This document shows, piece by piece, positions 2,009 to 28,259 of a stretch of 49,470 nt of DNA (position 1 is the first letter of the stretch; every line of letters begins with the position of its first letter). This DNA is from a virus: positions 1 to 49,470 of IMG/VR virus record IMGVR_UViG_3300048015_000021, one strand, 5' to 3'. The position numbers and the translations under genes were made by a program. The notes under the pieces were generated by a model. It saw nothing but the letters and a program-made list of their open reading frames with translations, was not told the origin of the DNA and did not search any database.

Positions 2009-2404
2009 ATGTATGAAGAGACGAAGTTTAACACCGAACTTATCGAGGCTATCGACGCCTACAATCGCAAGAACCGAAACTTCCCGGTCACCCTGACTGA
2101 CGTTATCCGTGAGATGGGCCTAAAGGACCCATTCGTCACCAAAATCAAGAAGGGCGAGTATGTTCCGACGAAGGAACGGATTGAGAAAGCGGCTGTGTTT
2201 TTGGGGGTCTCCCCCTCGTTCTTCACGCTCTACGCGAAGCGTTGGGTTGAGGCCGAGATTCTGGTCAACGAGGACCTGCTTAAGTTCGTGCGGCTGGTTA
2301 CCAGCGTAAGCACCGACTCTGCCCGTTCTCTGCTCATTCGTGGAGCAACGCGGCATATCGCAGGGGCTCTCGACAATAGTCGCCAGCTTACGGCCACGGC
2401 CTAA
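2009..2404 (+). CDS. XRE-like helix-turn-helix transcriptional regulator
   Basis: A 131-residue protein. Residues about 25-75 read as a Cro/CI-type HTH: TLTDVIREMGLKDPFVTKIK followed by 'RIEKAAVFLGVSPSFF', where the last helix and the LGV turn are typical of XRE repressors. It has its own near-consensus promoter (1920-1948) and an AGGGGAA ribosome binding site. It is divergent from the recombination/polymerase operon and convergent with the dNMP kinase, sharing stop codons (TAA at 2402-2404, TAG of the kinase at 2403-2401). It is the only clear repressor-like gene in the window and is the natural candidate to bind the shared TACCC...GGTA elements at 3.4-3.8 kb, but this link is inference. Confidence 0.7.
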   Translation: MYEETKFNTELIEAIDAYNRKNRNFPVTLTDVIREMGLKDPFVTKIKKGEYVPTKERIEKAAVFLGVSPSFFTLYAKRWVEAEILVNEDLLKFVRLVTSVSTDSARSLLIRGATRHIAGALDNSRQLTATA

Positions 2405-3069
2405 AACAGAATAGACTCTACGAGGTTGCAGGCCTTGGCCCTAAGGTCGTCCATATTACTGTCGTTCTGGATGATATAATCCGGGACGAATTCACTTGGA
2501 GGCAGACTTGTTTCTGACGCATGCCCATCTCCATCAAATCCTGGCCGTTGAACTAGTATATCGTAGAACTCTGCATGAGTTTTTAGCACCGCGTATTCGT
2601 TTGGGAACCGACAGTCGTCTATCATATTCACTAGACTGTCGTCAACTTGCGCGTCTAGCTGTTTCACCCAATAATTCTCGTCCTGCGAGCGACGGTAATC
2701 CGTCCCCCACCATTGGAGTATGGGCCGCAGGCTGTCTTTGTTCTGATTAACCCAATCAACTTTTTCCTGAGGCAGGATATCGCCCCAAACGGGAATCAGG
2801 AGATTGGGTGACTTTAGCCCACGCATCTCTTCGCCTCGGGCCTTAACGAAGGCCGCGAGGATATCGTGGTCGGCGTCCCAGGCTTCCTGAGAATCGTAGT
2901 AATACTCGGTATTGGCAATGCGGTGCCACCAATCGTAGACCTCAACCTTAAGCGGTTCGGCAAACGAAAGATATTGGACCCTCATCCCCTTGGCCTGGAG
3001 CAGTTCTGCTACCAGGCCTTTTAACGTAGACTTGCCCGCCTTTAGCTTGCCCCGGAAGGACAGAATCAA
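2401..3069 (-). CDS. Deoxynucleoside monophosphate kinase-like protein
   Basis: The 222-residue protein opens with a P-loop (GKLKAGKST, residues 7-15) followed by a lid-and-core layout seen in phage dNMP kinases, including RPILQWWGTDYRR and DDCRFPNEY segments that are typical of that family. It phosphorylates dNMPs to dNDPs for phage DNA synthesis, in the cytoplasm. The start is TTG at 3069-3067 with GGAGG seven bases upstream, and it overlaps the preceding TGA as TTGA. It is the last gene of a leftward operon driven by the promoter at 3447-3476. Confidence 0.8.
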   Translation of the reverse strand: MILSFRGKLKAGKSTLKGLVAELLQAKGMRVQYLSFAEPLKVEVYDWWHRIANTEYYYDSQEAWDADHDILAAFVKARGEEMRGLKSPNLLIPVWGDILPQEKVDWVNQNKDSLRPILQWWGTDYRRSQDENYWVKQLDAQVDDSLVNMIDDCRFPNEYAVLKTHAEFYDILVQRPGFDGDGHASETSLPPSEFVPDYIIQNDSNMDDLRAKACNLVESILF

Positions 3070-3242
3070 ACTGAGGCCTCCGGTTTAGCGCGAAACGGGG
3101 TGCAAATCGTACAAAGGATACGCTTCTTCGGTCGGCCACGATACGAAGGTTGCCGCGTGGAATGCCCTGCGGCATCCTTGTAAAAGGCTTCCTTGTTCTT
3201 GGTCTCGACGTACTCTAAATAGACGTTTTTTGGGCGTGCCAT
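3066..3242 (-). CDS. Small basic protein with AT-hook-like motif
   Basis: A 58-residue protein between the pilin and the dNMP kinase genes. It starts at the ATG at 3242-3240 (TAATG junction with the pilin stop) and ends in a TTGA junction with the kinase start. It contains YRGRPKKRILCTIC: a GRPKK core as in AT-hooks followed by CxxC. A DNA- or RNA-binding role is possible. I do not recognise the family. The tight coupling on both sides argues that it is translated. Confidence 0.6.
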   Translation of the reverse strand: MARPKNVYLEYVETKNKEAFYKDAAGHSTRQPSYRGRPKKRILCTICTPFRAKPEASV

Positions 3243-3394
3243 TAGCTGAGTTTGGTCGATGCGTCCGACAGAGTGTTCGCGACATGCTTGCCGAGCGTGG
3301 TAAGCACCGCGAGGGCGGCGAGCGAGATGAGTGCCACAATAAGGGCGTACTCAACGAGACCCTGGCCGGATTCGTCTTGGAGCAAGTTCTTCAT
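3242..3394 (-). CDS. Flp/Fap-type (type IVb) pilin subunit
   Basis: A 50-residue protein whose sequence DESGQGLVEYALIVALIS matches the Flp pilin pattern: a short charged leader ending in Gly10, then Glu at +5 and Tyr at +6, followed by a single hydrophobic helix (about residues 17-34) and a short hydrophilic tail. Known Flp prepilins are cleaved after that Gly by a TadV-type peptidase and assembled by Tad machinery in the inner membrane. No Tad machinery is visible here, so it would have to rely on the host system or act otherwise. The ATG at 3394-3392 has AAAAGG upstream, and the gene is first behind the promoter at 3447-3476. Confidence 0.8.
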   Translation of the reverse strand: MKNLLQDESGQGLVEYALIVALISLAALAVLTTLGKHVANTLSDASTKLS

Positions 3395-3446: not shown

Positions 3447-3476
3447 ATCTTACCACAAAGGGTATATCCCTGTCAA
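3447..3476 (-). promoter_or_regulatory. Leftward promoter with shared 14-bp spacer element
   Basis: On the minus strand TTGACA (3476-3471), an 18-bp spacer and TAAGAT (3452-3447) form a promoter for the pilin-kinase operon. The spacer and -10 overlap TACCCTTTGTGGTA (3464-3451), an imperfect dyad with TACC/GGTA arms that recurs at two other promoters nearby, suggesting a repressor operator. Confidence 0.65.
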
Positions 3477-3507: not shown

Positions 3508-3537
3508 TTGACATTGACTTACCCTATATGGTAACAT
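3508..3537 (+). promoter_or_regulatory. Rightward promoter A with shared 14-bp spacer element
   Basis: TTGACA (3508-3513), an 18-bp spacer and TAACAT (3532-3537). The element TACCCTATATGGTA at 3520-3533 occupies the spacer and touches the -10. It reads into the structured, apparently non-coding stretch at 3561-3693. Confidence 0.6.
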
Positions 3538-3749: not shown

Positions 3750-3778
3750 TTGACAACGCTTACCCGTTATGGTATAAT
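3750..3778 (+). promoter_or_regulatory. Perfect-consensus rightward promoter B with shared 14-bp element
   Basis: TTGACA (3750-3755), a 17-bp spacer and TATAAT (3773-3778) match the sigma70 consensus at all twelve positions. The spacer holds TACCCGTTATGGTA (3761-3774), the same element as at promoter A and at the leftward promoter. An intrinsically very strong promoter with an operator-like dyad in the spacer is typical of tight repression. Confidence 0.85.
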
Positions 3779-3784
3779 TAATAG

Positions 3785-4140
3785 GCAGAGTGAACGAAGC
3801 CCCTCCTCGCTATTATGGGGAGGACAAACCTCTCGATTCTAGGCTGCTCTAGCAAATGCCCTGGGTGTCCTGGGAGGGCATGAAAAAAAGCTCTCAGGAA
3901 GCATATGGTTTAGCGGGCGTTTAAGTGCCCTCCGGAGCTAAATACATATTTGAGATGGAAGCCTTACCAGAGACAGATGAAACGCTGCCGTAAAACGCCA
4001 TGAGTAGTCTGTGCGACGAGAATGTCCGTCTGACGTTTGATGAAGTAGGGAGGCCCTAGCCCCGCCTAGGCAACTAGAGAACGGGGGCACAGACGATGTC
4101 AATCGAGGGCCTCAGTCAAACGGTTACTTATTAAAGGCAG
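3785..4140 (+). ncRNA. Putative structured RNA 2 / long leader
   Basis: About 355 nt between promoter B and the ATG at 4145 lack a plausible gene and contain several perfect stems: CCTCC/GGAGG (3802-3806, 3819-3823), ATGCCCT/AGGGCAT (3856-3862, 3875-3881), GGGC/GCCC (3915-3918, 3927-3930), and an 8-bp long-range stem GTCTGTGC/GCACAGAC (4007-4014, 4087-4094). GGCGTTT (3916-3922) can pair alternatively with AAACGCC (3993-3999), so two mutually exclusive folds are possible. No intrinsic terminator is obvious before 4145. It is either a discrete ncRNA or a structured 5' leader controlling the early operon. Confidence 0.5.
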
Positions 4141-4144
4141 TATT

Positions 4145-5853: not shown

Positions 5854-6055
5854 CCGAATTACCAACGATTTAATCGCAACATTTCTCTTCTTCTTATTCC
5901 TCCTTGCAGGCGGAATCAATCTTTTAGCCATTGGATGGACAGCAAATTGGGTTTTGAGACAGATATGGACGGGGTATTCGTCTTTTTCGCACTATTTGTT
6001 GGCGCGGTGGGCTTTTATCGCGTCTATACTCTACCTAAAAAAGGGCAGTAAGTGA
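5846..6055 (+). CDS. Two-helix small membrane protein
   Basis: A 69-residue protein with a strongly hydrophobic segment (ATFLFFLFLLAGGINLLAIGW region) and a second hydrophobic stretch near the C-terminus (ARWAFIASILYL) ending in KKGSK. It starts inside the previous gene (ATGTCTGA) and overlaps the helicase start (GTGA). Unknown function, located in the inner membrane by prediction. Confidence 0.55.
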   Translation: MSDRITNDLIATFLFFLFLLAGGINLLAIGWTANWVLRQIWTGYSSFSHYLLARWAFIASILYLKKGSK

Positions 6056-8703
6056 CTAACGTCCGCACCTTTCTGATTGACCAGGGCCTCATTCAGCCCC
6101 ACGATGTTCCATCGGGGTCAGAATTCCGCATTACTTGTCCGTCCTGCCAGAACCCAAAGCAGAAGTGCTTTGTAAATGTGCAAGGCAAGGGCGCTCACTG
6201 TAAACATTGCGGGTTTGCCAAGGGCTGGCGTGGATTTATGCGCCTGTACGAACCTCCGTCTAAACAAGAACAGACGTTTGAGGATTTCGTTGCTGAAGCA
6301 CAAAACTTGCTAGCTCTGGACCCTACGATGATGCAATATCTTCTCGACCGTGGCTTCACCCATGCGACGATTACAGGCGCGCGGCTTGGACTTTGCCCAA
6401 GGCACTTACCGACGCCGGAAGATATCGAGTTTGGACTCGCATATCCTGGCGGCAAGTGGGTCTTGCACGACCGTCTTATTATTCCGTATATCCAGGACGG
6501 TATCGTCGTCACGGTACGCGGGCGACAGCTTCCCGGAGAAGAGACTGAGAAAAAATATCTGTCTCTGCCGAATTCCACCACACCGCCATATGTGGTCGGT
6601 ACTATCGACATGGATAAACCTGTTCTGCTTTGCGAAGGCGAATTCGATGCGCTGTTGGCGCACCAGCACGGATTCCAAGCCATCGGCATTCCGGGCGCAC
6701 AGCATTTCGAAAAAGACAAAGAGCATATCAGCCACCTGCCCAATCTCTACATCGCCTTTGACGGAGATGATGCAGGACGCAAGGGCATGGATAAAGTCAT
6801 CAAGAGCCTCACCGAGGCGCGTCGTGTTGACTTGCCCGAAGGCTTCGATGTTGGCGAATATCTCAATCAGTTTGGTCCGGCGTCGTTTCAGAATCTTATC
6901 GACAAAGCAGAACTATATCTGCATGGCAAGCACCAGAAAGAGGACCGTTTCGCCATCGTCGTTGAGAACTACGCCGATTGGGCGTGGTCAAATGGCAAGC
7001 TGCTTGGCCCCACGATATCCTGGGCCCCGCGCATGGAAAAAGCACTCTCAGGCTGGAGTCCTGGCCTTATCCTAATCGGTGCTGAGGCACATTGCTTTGC
7101 ATTGGGAACTGAAGTTCTTATGTACGATGGTACAACCAAAAAGGTTGAGGACGTTCAAATCGGGGACCAGGTAATGGGACCGGATTCGACACCCCGAAAT
7201 GTAACCTCTCTGTCTCGGGGTACTGCCCCTCTTCATAAGGTCAAAACCCGGACAATGGATTATACGGTCACAGGCAACCATATTTTGGCATTGCGTCGAT
7301 ATAGTCATAAGCAAATTGATTTTGAGATGACTGTCGATGAATTTTATAAACAAACCGATTGGTTCAAGTCCAAGTCGATGATGTATCGAACTCCCGGCGT
7401 AGATTTTCAGGAACAGCCTACGGAAATTTCTCCCTACTACTTAGGGTTATGGCTTGGTGACGGACAGCATATTCCTAGAGAATTTCTCGTTAATTCCCGT
7501 GAAGCGCGACTCTCGCTGCTGGCCGGACTGATTGATTCAGATGGGCACTTGTCGGGAGAAACCTATGAAATAGTCCAAAAGAACCAAACCCTCGCAAACG
7601 ACATTGTTTGGCTCGCTAGGTCATTGGGATTCTATGCGTCGGTCACACCTTGTCAAAAAACCTGCACCAATAACGGTAAAACAGGGACCTACTACCGGGT
7701 ATATTTACTCGGCGATTTCTCCGATGTTCCAACACTTCTTACCCGCAAATCTTTTATTCGTAAGACCATACCTCGTTATGGGCTGAATGAAGAAGTAACG
7801 GTTACTCCAGCGGGGATTGGTGAATTTGCCGGATTCACGGTAGACGGAGACCATTTATTTCTGGGAGCCGACTTTACGGTTCTTCATAATTCGGGAAAAT
7901 CATGCTTTCTCGTCAAGAGCTTGTACGAAGTCGCTATCGAAAACCCAACCGACACCGTGGCGGTATATCTGTCGCTGGATGACACCATCGAAGAAGCAAT
8001 GACGCGAATGCTGTCGCTGCATTCAGACGTAGAGTTTGGCCTGGTGCGCCAGCCGCGCAATGCCCCTGTCGAAGCACAGAAGAAAGTGGAGGCAGCCGTT
8101 AAGACACTCAAGCGCCTGGATAACCTTATCTTGCGCGATGCAACATATGGCCGTAGCCTCAACTATCTCTCGACGCTGTTCGAGAAGCTGCGCCAGAAAT
8201 ATCCGGAGAAGCGTATCGTCGTATTCATCGACTCCCTTGCCAAGATTGTCCCGGACCTACATACCGAAACCGAGAGCGGTCCCAAAGCCAATTGGAAAGC
8301 GTATCTGGCATCAGAACTTAAATATCTATCCACCAAGCATGGCCTGTGTATTGTCACACCGACTGACTTGCGGAAGATAAATGGCTTCCGTCGTCCGGTG
8401 CGCGACGACCTCAAAGACGCGGCGGAACTTGCCTATGAGGCAAACGTGATTCTGCTTGGGTATAACGACCTCAAGAAGAACCGCGAGGACGCGGCAATAA
8501 CCTGGGTTGGCCCAGAAGGCGACCCAGAGCCTATCCTGGAGTTTAATATCGACAAGAACAAAATTACAGGCATCACAGGAAATATCCGCTACCGTATGCT
8601 CGGCGCAACGTCCAACTTCCAAGAAGTCTCGTTCACCGAGGACCAGCAATACGATATCGTCATGCGTAATCAAATTGCCCAATCACGAAAGGTAGGGCCG
8701 TAA
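6052..8703 (+). CDS. T7 gp4-like primase-helicase interrupted by an intein
   Basis: An 883-residue precursor. Residues 29-53 are a CPSC...CKHC zinc-binding domain, about 188-245 a TOPRIM domain (CEGEFDALL with Glu195; AFDGDDAG with Asp237, Asp239, Asp240), and the C-terminal part a RecA-like DnaB/SF4 helicase with Walker B VVFIDS at about 723-728. The Walker A is split: G343AEAH347 precedes and S614GKS617 follows a 266-residue intein (348-613). After splicing the extein is about 617 residues, a normal length for a fused primase-helicase. It unwinds and primes at the phage fork with the polymerase at 1-815. The start is GTG at 6052, overlapping the previous stop as GTGA. Confidence 0.9.
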   Translation: MTNVRTFLIDQGLIQPHDVPSGSEFRITCPSCQNPKQKCFVNVQGKGAHCKHCGFAKGWRGFMRLYEPPSKQEQTFEDFVAEAQNLLALDPTMMQYLLDRGFTHATITGARLGLCPRHLPTPEDIEFGLAYPGGKWVLHDRLIIPYIQDGIVVTVRGRQLPGEETEKKYLSLPNSTTPPYVVGTIDMDKPVLLCEGEFDALLAHQHGFQAIGIPGAQHFEKDKEHISHLPNLYIAFDGDDAGRKGMDKVIKSLTEARRVDLPEGFDVGEYLNQFGPASFQNLIDKAELYLHGKHQKEDRFAIVVENYADWAWSNGKLLGPTISWAPRMEKALSGWSPGLILIGAEAHCFALGTEVLMYDGTTKKVEDVQIGDQVMGPDSTPRNVTSLSRGTAPLHKVKTRTMDYTVTGNHILALRRYSHKQIDFEMTVDEFYKQTDWFKSKSMMYRTPGVDFQEQPTEISPYYLGLWLGDGQHIPREFLVNSREARLSLLAGLIDSDGHLSGETYEIVQKNQTLANDIVWLARSLGFYASVTPCQKTCTNNGKTGTYYRVYLLGDFSDVPTLLTRKSFIRKTIPRYGLNEEVTVTPAGIGEFAGFTVDGDHLFLGADFTVLHNSGKSCFLVKSLYEVAIENPTDTVAVYLSLDDTIEEAMTRMLSLHSDVEFGLVRQPRNAPVEAQKKVEAAVKTLKRLDNLILRDATYGRSLNYLSTLFEKLRQKYPEKRIVVFIDSLAKIVPDLHTETESGPKANWKAYLASELKYLSTKHGLCIVTPTDLRKINGFRRPVRDDLKDAAELAYEANVILLGYNDLKKNREDAAITWVGPEGDPEPILEFNIDKNKITGITGNIRYRMLGATSNFQEVSFTEDQQYDIVMRNQIAQSRKVGP
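7093..7890 (+). mobile_element. Intein with LAGLIDADG homing endonuclease, inserted in Walker A
   Basis: Residues 348-613 of the helicase precursor. Block A starts with Cys1 (CFALGTEVL), block B has TGNHILAL with the conserved His, the DOD endonuclease motifs are YLGLWLGDG and LAGLIDSDG, and the C-terminal blocks end with GADFTVLHN, that is His-Asn, followed by Ser+1 of the extein. All splicing residues are present, so it should be active. Base composition is visibly different from the flanks, with fewer ATAT words and more TCT/CTC, which fits later acquisition. Insertion between the P-loop residues means that helicase activity needs splicing. Confidence 0.9.
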
Positions 8704-24774: not shown

Positions 24775-25013
24775 TATTTGTCCCTTCCATGTAGTGTGAG
24801 TAAGGCAACGCTTTGCCAGAAAATAAAACCCTCGCGGGTTTCTGACCAACACAGGTCATCAAGCAATGTGTGATAAACCTGATGATTATCCTCACAGGAG
24901 AATAATCTCTCGGCAAAGGCAACCTGTGATGTATAGTAGGCGGAGCCAGGCTCCTGCTCCAAGATATGGAGGAGCAAGAGCCGGGCACTTTTCATCATAT
25001 GGTGATTGGTCAT
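24774..25013 (-). CDS. W-x-x-TR-x-G-x-x-FW protein, copy A
   Basis: A 79-residue helical protein with LCWSETREGFIFWQSVALLTL at the C-terminus, paralogous to the protein at 23370. The ATG overlaps the VWA gene stop as ATGA and the stop forms TAATG with the next gene, so it is translated in one tight operon with the VWA and ATPase genes. Confidence 0.6.
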   Translation of the reverse strand: MTNHHMMKSARLLLLHILEQEPGSAYYTSQVAFAERLFSCEDNHQVYHTLLDDLCWSETREGFIFWQSVALLTLHGRDK

Positions 25014-26719
25014 CGAATAATATCCCGGAGGAACTTACCGAGTACCGTGCCCATATTCTCTGGGGTAGCACGGGCAACATACTTGCCGCACTTCTTGATT
25101 TCATCGTTGGGGTCGAAGCCCATCGTGAGAACGATAACCTCGATACCCTTTTTATTCAGGGCCTTGACCGCGAGAGCATCTCTGTCAGAGACTGCTCCAT
25201 CGGTAATGATGACCGCAATCTTACCCTGTGACCTGACCTTATCGAAAGAGTCGGCCATCATATTAGCCGCGCCTTCGAGGTCCGTGCCACCGGAACAGTT
25301 AAGCATTCTCTGTGCCGCTTTGTTCCGCTGCTCGGTGGTCCACTTGTCTGCAAAGCCTTTGAGTTCTTCGGCGTCATTGTGGAATACACCGAATGCCGTT
25401 CGGACTTCTTTGAATCTATCTACTGTCTCGGTCAGGGCAACGATAGTCCGAATCTCTAGCTCACGGATACTCATCAGGTCTGAGGAATAATACCGTGACT
25501 TATATACATTCGGATTAGTGGACGGGATTTTTACGTCCTGGCCTCGGTCATCTGTTTCATAGCACGGAGACTCAGTTGACCTGCTGCAATCAATCATCAT
25601 ATAGATTGCATAGTCGCGGGTCCCGGCGAGGTTCCGCTTGGCGAATACTCGGTTATGTCCTTGCATCTGAGCCTTGATATACGAACGCCCATGGAACCGA
25701 CCCCGCTTGAGCATTACGTCACGGTCGGCGTCCTCGTTCTCTTTGAGGAGCTTATCAATCTTGGCACGGAGCGGATTGATAACATTACCTACCGTCTGCT
25801 TGAGGTCAGCCCAAGTAACAGGGACGGGTTTGATTTTCTTGATTTCAAACTCACCCTTACCTACGCCACCTCCAACGAAGTCGTTCTTCTCTTCGAGGCC
25901 CTCGAACTTGGTAAGGTCCATACCGCCGCCGCCTTCGCCTGGCTCATCCTCTTCTTGCTCGGGCGTTTCCATCGTCTGCATTACACGACGCAGAACCTGA
26001 GGGATATTAGCTAGAAGCTCATCGACCGTGGCAGAGTTACCCATCTCGGCAACGTCGTCAAGCAGTTGCTGGTCCCAATTATATCCTGCCGGAATATCCG
26101 ACAGCTTATCAATGGCCCCAGAGGCAACCGCTTTGATAAGTGACTGCGCTGCACCAAGCTTCTGCTTGGTAGGGACGTTCGCACCAGCCGCAATCTCCTT
26201 ACCCGTCTGGGATACGACTGCCATCTCTTGCTCGTAGTGAGCCCGCCGCCAGCCCTTATCGCACCGGGGAAGGTGAGCAATATCCTCTTGCATACCCGGA
26301 TAGATATTCTCTCGGGCATATTTATGGACTCGCTCGGCCTCCGCCGCCATGATAACATCCTTGACGATATCCGCTGCCTCATATGTCTTGGGGTCCAGCC
26401 AGCCAGCATCGCTGGCGATGGCTTCGGACAGCTTAGATATATTTACCTTGGTATTTGAATGAACGGCGTGAAGCATATTCTGGAGTACGAACGCAGGTCC
26501 AGCCTGCGGTTCCATGCCTAGCAATTGTGCCTCGTTATAAGTGAGGACACCCTGCCCGCCTTCTTTCTTGAACGACCAGGCATCGCCGGGGATAACCTTG
26601 ATATTGTTATCCCCAGCGGCAAGGTTCGCGAACTGTTCGAGTTCGACACGACCAAGACGTTTCTTTTGTAGAAAGTTTTTCTCTTCTCTATATAGTTTAT
26701 CATCATATGATTGGGCCAT
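25010..26719 (-). CDS. VWA-domain protein, CobT/NorD-like
   Basis: A 569-residue protein. The C-terminal 190 residues are a von Willebrand A domain with a complete MIDAS: MIDCSRS (Asp377, Ser379, Ser381), GGTDLEG (Thr) and ITDGAVSD (Asp). A Glu/Gly-rich acidic linker lies around 251-266 and a long helical N-terminal part precedes it, as in CobT and NorD, the partners of CobS/NorQ-type AAA+ ATPases. The ATPase is encoded directly upstream. Phage versions of this pair are often annotated as cobalt chelatase, but the substrate is not known and cobalamin synthesis genes are absent here. Confidence 0.8.
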   Translation of the reverse strand: MAQSYDDKLYREEKNFLQKKRLGRVELEQFANLAAGDNNIKVIPGDAWSFKKEGGQGVLTYNEAQLLGMEPQAGPAFVLQNMLHAVHSNTKVNISKLSEAIASDAGWLDPKTYEAADIVKDVIMAAEAERVHKYARENIYPGMQEDIAHLPRCDKGWRRAHYEQEMAVVSQTGKEIAAGANVPTKQKLGAAQSLIKAVASGAIDKLSDIPAGYNWDQQLLDDVAEMGNSATVDELLANIPQVLRRVMQTMETPEQEEDEPGEGGGGMDLTKFEGLEEKNDFVGGGVGKGEFEIKKIKPVPVTWADLKQTVGNVINPLRAKIDKLLKENEDADRDVMLKRGRFHGRSYIKAQMQGHNRVFAKRNLAGTRDYAIYMMIDCSRSTESPCYETDDRGQDVKIPSTNPNVYKSRYYSSDLMSIRELEIRTIVALTETVDRFKEVRTAFGVFHNDAEELKGFADKWTTEQRNKAAQRMLNCSGGTDLEGAANMMADSFDKVRSQGKIAVIITDGAVSDRDALAVKALNKKGIEVIVLTMGFDPNDEIKKCGKYVARATPENMGTVLGKFLRDIIR

Positions 26720-26750
26720 TTATATTTTCTCCTGTCTTGGGAGGTAAGCT

Positions 26751-28259
26751 TTAGCGACTACCGAAGCGGGTGTTTACCATGGTACGCATCGAATCAATTT
26801 GGTGTTTCGCTTCGAACTTCACCGCATTAAGTACCACGATTTCGACCGCACGGCGGGGTGTTGCTGAGTAATTCGTGATTGATTCGCAAATCATTTCGAG
26901 TTCACGAAGGCTCACGATATACGACCAGGCCTCGGGGTTCTTTTGTTTGTTGGTTCGCGTCTCACGGGCGAAGTCCACAAGGGAGGTTATAATCTTTTCG
27001 TCAATCTGACCAAACTTGGTCTTGAGAATCTTGACCTCGATAGCCTTCTCGGGATATTCGATATCAAACTTCCAAGGCCGTGAGTTCTGGGCTGCATTCT
27101 GTTCGTACAGTCCGGGATATTCATCCGGAGGATTCGTCGCAAGAATCATGCGGAAATTTTCGTGGCGCGGTATAACTTCGTACCCGTAAGCCGTATTAAT
27201 CGCCAGGTCCGTGTCCTTAAGCATAACATCCTGGAACATCATAAACAAGCCGGGTTTAGCAACGAGGTATTCATCCACGAAGCAGAGGTATCCCTTACGA
27301 AACGCCTCGGCAAACGGCCCGTCAACCCACTTAACACCACCCACTCCATCGGGCAGCATCTGTCCGATAACATCTTCTTTTTCGGCTTGGTTATTAAGCA
27401 GGATATAAACGAATCCATTGCCCCACTCCTTGGCGAAGTAACGACCGCGCTCGGTCTTGCCGCTGCCCTTCTCGCCCCAGAGAACGACCGGATGTTCGCC
27501 ACCCGCAATGTATTGGAAGATTTCTTCGTCTTGTTGGGTCGGGAGATATTGGCCGTTCGTCTTGGGAATAAACCGCTTCTCAAGTTCCAGGGTCAGACGA
27601 GGCAACCCAAAGAAATAGTTATTATCCGTCACCCATTTACGTTTCGCTGCCTCGATTGTCGGTTCAATTGTCGGTGCCGCAGGCCTGGCCGGGGACGTAA
27701 CGGCCTCGCCCTCACCGAAGGCATCTTCGGTATAGGTTCCAATGGCTTTAGCCATAAGTTCCGCAACCGTTTGCGGCGTGATATTCGTGCCGGGCACGGT
27801 TTGGGGTGCCACTTGTGCAGTTGCTCCTTGGTTGGTTGGGGGATTGATAACTACTGGTAGGGGGAAGAAGTTCCCGGAGCGGGCCGGGATTGCCGCCGTC
27901 GCGATAGGCTGCTTATCCGTTCGCGGCAGACCAGCCGTGATATAATACTCGGCCCGGTCCAAGATTTTCTCCTTATCCGGTTCAGTATTCAGGGCTGCGA
28001 TAAACGCGATACGAGAATCGGGGTGTTCCGCAACCGTGTTACGGTGCTGGAACATATCCTCACGGGTCCATTTCGTAGAAATGCCGGTGCCTTGCTGCAT
28101 TCGATTGGCGTAATCGTTGCAGATGGTCATGACGTTATTCGGGCTGACGTTCTCATGCTCCATCGCATAGACATATGCATTCGGCACGAAGAACTTATGG
28201 CCGTTAGGCTGAAGGCCTGCCTCACGCAGGCGATTAGGACTTCCAGGTGCTTTGGGCAT
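26751..28259 (-). CDS. MoxR/CobS-type AAA+ ATPase
   Basis: A 502-residue protein with an N-terminal unknown region, a Pro/Ala/Thr linker (about 120-205) and an AAA+ domain: Walker A GEKGSGKT (262-269), Walker B YLCFVDE (324-330), sensor 1 ILATNP (372-377). It is the likely motor that works with the VWA partner at 25010-26719, remodelling a protein substrate or inserting a metal. In phages such pairs are known, but their role is unclear. It is separated from the VWA gene by 31 bases. Confidence 0.8.
   Translation of the reverse strand: MPKAPGSPNRLREAGLQPNGHKFFVPNAYVYAMEHENVSPNNVMTICNDYANRMQQGTGISTKWTREDMFQHRNTVAEHPDSRIAFIAALNTEPDKEKILDRAEYYITAGLPRTDKQPIATAAIPARSGNFFPLPVVINPPTNQGATAQVAPQTVPGTNITPQTVAELMAKAIGTYTEDAFGEGEAVTSPARPAAPTIEPTIEAAKRKWVTDNNYFFGLPRLTLELEKRFIPKTNGQYLPTQQDEEIFQYIAGGEHPVVLWGEKGSGKTERGRYFAKEWGNGFVYILLNNQAEKEDVIGQMLPDGVGGVKWVDGPFAEAFRKGYLCFVDEYLVAKPGLFMMFQDVMLKDTDLAINTAYGYEVIPRHENFRMILATNPPDEYPGLYEQNAAQNSRPWKFDIEYPEKAIEVKILKTKFGQIDEKIITSLVDFARETRTNKQKNPEAWSYIVSLRELEMICESITNYSATPRRAVEIVVLNAVKFEAKHQIDSMRTMVNTRFGSR

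Follow-up and report, generated by a model that had tools for sequence, protein, structure and literature searches.

Tad pili are widespread surface fibres of bacteria and also serve as phage receptors; the Tad pilus of Caulobacter, for example, binds phage phiCb5, and its pilin subunits have their N-termini in the core of the pilus and turn their C-termini outward (PMC11067988). Interference of phages with host pili has been described in other systems. A Pf phage protein blocks type IV pili, leading to superinfection exclusion (PMC8764522), and PilB-inactivating proteins of Pseudomonas phages exclude rivals (reviewed in PMC11436027). In the literature searched, no paper was found on a phage-encoded pilin that is used against host pili for exclusion. 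Phage Flp genes as such are already known and are thus not unprecedented: in the portions available of two reports, a Flp gene is listed as a virulence-factor hit or COG hit in the Vibrio harveyi prophages phi345/phiGANI1709 (PMC12482185) and in the phiLM21-like prophages of S. meliloti (PMC12429752).

The locus described here is a flp gene in a viral IMG/VR contig of 49,470 bases, the whole of which is called the window. Like Caulobacter PilA (PDB 8u1k) and the Flp pilin of an Eremiobacterota tad locus (L087), its product has a prepilin leader, Gly(-1), Glu(+5), Tyr(+6), and a single helix. It differs from cellular Flp/Tad pilins in that the phage copy stands alone, as the first gene of an apparently early operon with a deoxynucleoside monophosphate (dNMP) kinase and under an operator-like site. 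With the V. harveyi and S. meliloti genes it shares the occurrence of a Flp pilin in a tailed (pro)phage, whereas those prophages are Proteobacterial and the portions available describe no operon or operator logic. With the Pf and PilB-inactivating proteins it would share pilus-directed exclusion, which is only proposed for flp; those proteins act on assembly proteins or expression, whereas flp encodes a pilin, which would act as a subunit. The interest of the gene lies in its recurrence, its likely early-lytic control, and the possible tampering with pili by a subunit.

The flp gene and its tailed-phage carrier

The features of the region are the following (coordinates in the window, strand, description, basis).

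2009..2404, (+), candidate repressor with a Cro/C1-type HTH, converging on the flp operon (Pfam HTH_3 E 4.2e-4, 20.7 bits, below the 23-bit cut-off)
2401..3069, (-), dNMP kinase, start overlapping the stop of the 58-aa ORF (phrog_139 E 1.6e-29; Pfam DNMK 41.3 bits)
3066..3242, (-), 58-aa ORF, start overlapping the flp stop (TAATG; sequence)
3242..3394, (-), flp, a 50-aa Flp/Tad-type (type IVc) prepilin with a 10-aa leader and a 40-aa mature helix (Pfam, AlphaFold2, PDB profile match)
3447..3476, (-), putative sigma-70-like flp promoter TTGACA-18-TAAGAT (consensus match 10/12, TG before the -10)
3451..3464, (-), operator-like site TACCC-N5-GGTA inside the flp promoter (motif search)
3508..3537, (+), divergent putative promoter with an operator-like site at 3520-3533 (promoter and motif search)
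3750..3778, (+), consensus sigma-70 promoter (12/12) of the rightward operon with an operator-like site at 3761-3774 (promoter and motif search)

The full translation of flp is MKNLLQDESGQGLVEYALIVALISLAALAVLTTLGKHVANTLSDASTKLS, in which the predicted cut separates the leader MKNLLQDESG from QGLVEYALIVALISLAALAVLTTLGKHVANTLSDASTKLS. An earlier note on this DNA had claimed a Flp prepilin signature consisting of a Gly cleavage site, Glu+5, Tyr+6, and a hydrophobic helix, and had named a Flp_Fap profile search as the test beforehand. The protein matches PF04964 Flp_Fap with 37.6 bits (E 1.9e-9, 44/46 positions covered), above the curated Pfam cut-off of 32.2 bits, and the match was recovered from the DNA as well (36.2 bits). 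The signature is borne out by Gly10, Glu15, and Tyr16, which correspond to Gly(-1), Glu(+5), and Tyr(+6) of type IV prepilins and are invariant in 21 aligned sequences (flp and 20 relatives). A profile of the flp relatives matches the Caulobacter Tad pilin solved by cryo-EM (PDB 8u1k, E 1.6e-10) and a second solved Tad pilin sequence (PDB 8u2b). In the AlphaFold2 model, residues 4-49 form one helix (mean pLDDT 87.7), the protein being short and devoid of a globular domain; a Foldseek search of the PDB with this helix gave no match, as expected for one helix this short. NCBIfam gave no match for the pilin. The combined evidence is well beyond chance, and judged from its sequence the product is near certain to be a Flp (Tad, type IVc) pilin. 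It carries a site for the prepilin peptidase (TadV/CpaA), at which cleavage is predicted, and it looks assembly-competent, with assembly into a Tad pilus likewise predicted.

The encoded 40-residue hydrophobic helix could also belong to a short membrane peptide whose job is unrelated to pili (lysis, membrane exclusion, or a change of the inner membrane), the pilin helix being incidental. In another phage contig (L092), a tail-fibre gene has flp and then a small hydrophobic ORF downstream of it, which would suit this idea. We hold it to be quite unlikely, as the protein found no lysis family in PHROGs (only weak matches of unknown function, E 0.016 and 0.27), keeps Gly(-1), Glu(+5), and Tyr(+6) together with a C-terminal motif common to Eremiobacterota pilins, and is 56-57% identical to a pilin of a Tad locus. 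The earlier note had offered three roles: modifying the host's Tad pili, blocking superinfection through pili, or acting as a membrane peptide. That all features for processing and assembly have been kept favours a role in pili over an unrelated membrane role.

The carrier of flp is a tailed phage. The record is a linear fragment with no terminal repeats and possibly incomplete; it encodes a terminase large subunit (phrog_2 E 9.8e-21), a Clp-type protease within the head-gene region, and a RecA-like protein. Two different tyrosine recombinases (integrases) are found on this one contig (16810-17862 and 20369-21223). Furthermore, the DnaB part of a DnaB-type primase-helicase (6052-8703) is interrupted at its ATP-binding loop by an intein with Hint and homing endonuclease domains, and at 25010-28259 a GvpN/MoxR-type-like AAA ATPase adjoins a larger protein that reads like its VWA-domain partner. 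Searches of the window for the T2SSE/TadA ATPase (PF00437) and the A24 prepilin peptidase (PF01478) found neither, and the same searches were positive in control genomes; the linear fragment thus lacks the TadA ATPase and prepilin peptidase beside the pilin that mark a complete Tad secretion/pilus system.

The best two flp matches among those listed in a whole-collection scan of species genomes are from Eremiobacterota. Matches were found in 69 of 149 Eremiobacterota genomes, the best with 51.8 bits and others with up to 62% identity, nearly full length; elsewhere, the best match reached 43.8 bits in 400 Chloroflexota and 41.8 bits in 249 Gemmatimonadota. The top-scoring Eremiobacterota relative (L052/L087, the 56-57% identical pilin) belongs to a real tad locus, which also encodes a T2SSE ATPase, T2SSF, an A24 peptidase, and a TadE/G-like protein, and other relatives (L003 and L004) are solo flp genes. 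Phage flp and the Eremiobacterota pilins have the C-terminal pattern LG..A.N.LS.A...LS in common. In a tree of 34 Flp proteins, the window pilin takes no fixed place, its nearest rows all being Eremiobacterota. The GC3 of flp (0.745, calculated from 51 codons only) is the highest of 40 window genes (mean 0.597), which is suggestive of a higher-GC donor; the donor loci have 64-67% GC. Taken together, the matches, the tad locus, the shared C-terminal pattern, and the GC3 make an Eremiobacterota-like host likely, as far as one 50-aa protein can indicate. No relatives of the terminase were found among phage records, IMG/VR, or the 149 Eremiobacterota genomes, so the phage lineage appears isolated and its host stays inferred; the dNMP kinase likewise had no relatives in IMG/VR.

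As an outlier in GC3 within a lineage of which one copy is known, flp might be a recently acquired passenger that has no selected function in the phage. This is very unlikely given its intact frame, its consensus-like promoter, which contains the operator-like site of this phage, the downstream genes coupled to it, its recurrence in unrelated phages, and the constraint seen in the rhizobial prophages (see below).

Operon structure and operator-like sites

As the earlier note had proposed, flp is the promoter-proximal gene of an operon with a dNMP kinase: the putative promoter at 3476-3447 (-) is followed by flp, the 58-aa ORF, which has no match in Pfam, PHROGs, or NCBIfam, and the kinase, making up a three-gene operon. 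The tight coupling of flp to a nucleotide kinase gives no hint of pili and counts against a pilus-related explanation.

A shared operator element had also been claimed, and this too was upheld. The exact motif TACCC-N5-GGTA occurs only three times in the whole window, within a span of 324 bases, and in none of 100 shuffles were three sites reached. Each site sits between the -35 and -10 of a promoter-like sequence and partly overlaps the -10. This layout fits a single, presumed repressor acting on both early operons through TACCC-N5-GGTA, by analogy with a lambda-type switch. Since the motif is present in both the flp and the rightward promoters, flp looks like an early gene that is co-controlled with the rightward operon. 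If one repressor holds both early operons, flp would be expressed early in the lytic cycle and be off in the lysogen; the operator-like site in its promoter argues for such early-lytic rather than lysogenic expression. Downstream of the perfect-consensus rightward promoter lies a 366-base untranslated leader (3779-4144), whose folding is not unusually structured (z -1.15); no Rfam families were found in the window, including this leader.

The position of the operator-like site bears on lysogenic conversion, in which the pilin would be a moron that supplements or alters the host's pili to the advantage of the lysogen (adhesion, biofilm) instead of excluding rivals. The integrases encoded in the window would suit such a role, as would the many flp copies in predicted prophages, some of them opposite in strand to the terminase gene, and the report on V. 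harveyi counts its prophage Flp among adhesion factors (PMC12482185). With the operator-like site of the rightward early promoters inside the flp promoter, the gene would be silent in the lysogen if a repressor binds there, and we regard lysogenic conversion as unlikely.

Lone flp genes in other viral records

According to the earlier note, genes of this kind are normally part of bacterial tad loci, and a check of other phages was suggested there. The statement holds for the family and fails as an exclusive rule: IMG/VR scans with single and aligned Flp proteins yielded Flp-like ORFs in 33 further viral records, which stand beside the two published prophage reports. Lone phage flp genes are not unique to the window. 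The search for relatives relied on short motifs, favouring the canonical pilin core, and the 33 records include predicted prophages with unverified borders as well as a few weak cases (L096-L100) that may be host flanks. When three Flp proteins were run by tblastn against a set of 50,697 phage records, no match came up; this does not speak for absence, as short hydrophobic queries of this kind are probably masked by the low-complexity filter.

None of the 33 records has a pilus ATPase. A terminase match was obtained in 15 of 22 further records tested, some of them weak, and several flp records without one have head or tail genes close by. The gene is found near the terminase in L026, L035-L037, L041, L090, and L094, and among tail genes in L002 and L093. 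The Pfam Flp_Fap cut-off was passed by 7 of 10 scanned Flp ORFs, with no match for L026 and scores below it for L092 and L095; L002 passes the cut-off, whereas L025 fails to reach it. Three observations concern individual records. L044 has an overlapping tandem pair of Flp pilin genes on a phage contig (7989-8144 and 8141-8311), both above the Pfam cut-off. L090, L091, L092, L093, and L094 encode closely similar phage Flp proteins (KGQGLVEYAIILAL...) in differing settings (terminase, tail, near a tail fibre). The Flp-like ORF at L099:7974-8129 (MAQSLVEYALILALV...) apparently has neither leader nor Gly(-1), as if already mature.

The 34-protein Flp tree places L002 and L025 together with a pilin from Chloroflexota (support 93/86), and the rhizobial prophage Flp is of the alphaproteobacterial GATAIEY type. 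As the window pilin is Eremiobacterota-like, several separate captures of flp by phages are likely on these sequence affinities.

The phiLM21-like rhizobial prophages have flp between a NusG-like gene and the terminase; phiLM21 itself has no annotated flp before the terminase, so the slot is variable. Among seven distinct pilins of this set, pairwise identity is 0.89 in the leader and 0.91 in the helix core, and the remainder varies toward the C-terminus (0.61, then 0.42). Nonsynonymous changes per site are fewer than synonymous ones. A kept core and a varying surface are expected of a phage-made, assembly-competent subunit, and cellular pilins may show the same.

A possible role in the infected cell

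We infer a course of events that leads from repressor control through cleavage by the host, pilus entry, and pilus change or block to exclusion. An Eremiobacterota-like host would have been the source of a genuine Tad (Flp) prepilin gene, which the phage retained while lacking the machinery for pili. Expression would begin early in lytic growth, driven by a promoter that is probably under the phage repressor, and the host prepilin peptidase (TadV/CpaA) would cut the protein after Gly10, whereupon the 40-aa helix would enter the inner-membrane pilin pool. The phage pilin would then be incorporated into, or poison, the host Tad pilus, so that the surface is changed or extension is stopped; fewer pilus-tropic phages would adsorb, and the infecting phage would keep the cell to itself. 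To this explanation as a whole we assign a probability of roughly 0.45. For its parts, the odds that the phage pilin interferes with host pili at all appear about even, and superinfection exclusion as its purpose is a tentative, somewhat doubtful proposal.

An assembly-competent pilin might instead raise or repair piliation and thereby aid the adsorption or spread of the phage's own progeny. Nothing indicates that the window's phage uses pili, and early expression in an infected cell is no help for adsorption to other cells, which makes this highly improbable.

A broader form of pilus tampering, which we put forward as speculative and rather unlikely, is that tailed phages have repeatedly captured the host's Tad major pilin, without the machinery and across several phyla, as a subunit-level weapon. 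The core would be kept and the exposed end altered, and pili would be converted or capped against competitors, in this phage by an early gene under the lytic switch.

If true, a pilin supplied by the phage would be a form of host-surface control unlike the assembly-protein inhibitors of Pseudomonas phages. Lone flp genes recur in phages that are not related to one another, which suggests that phages may tamper with host pili and makes that idea testable.
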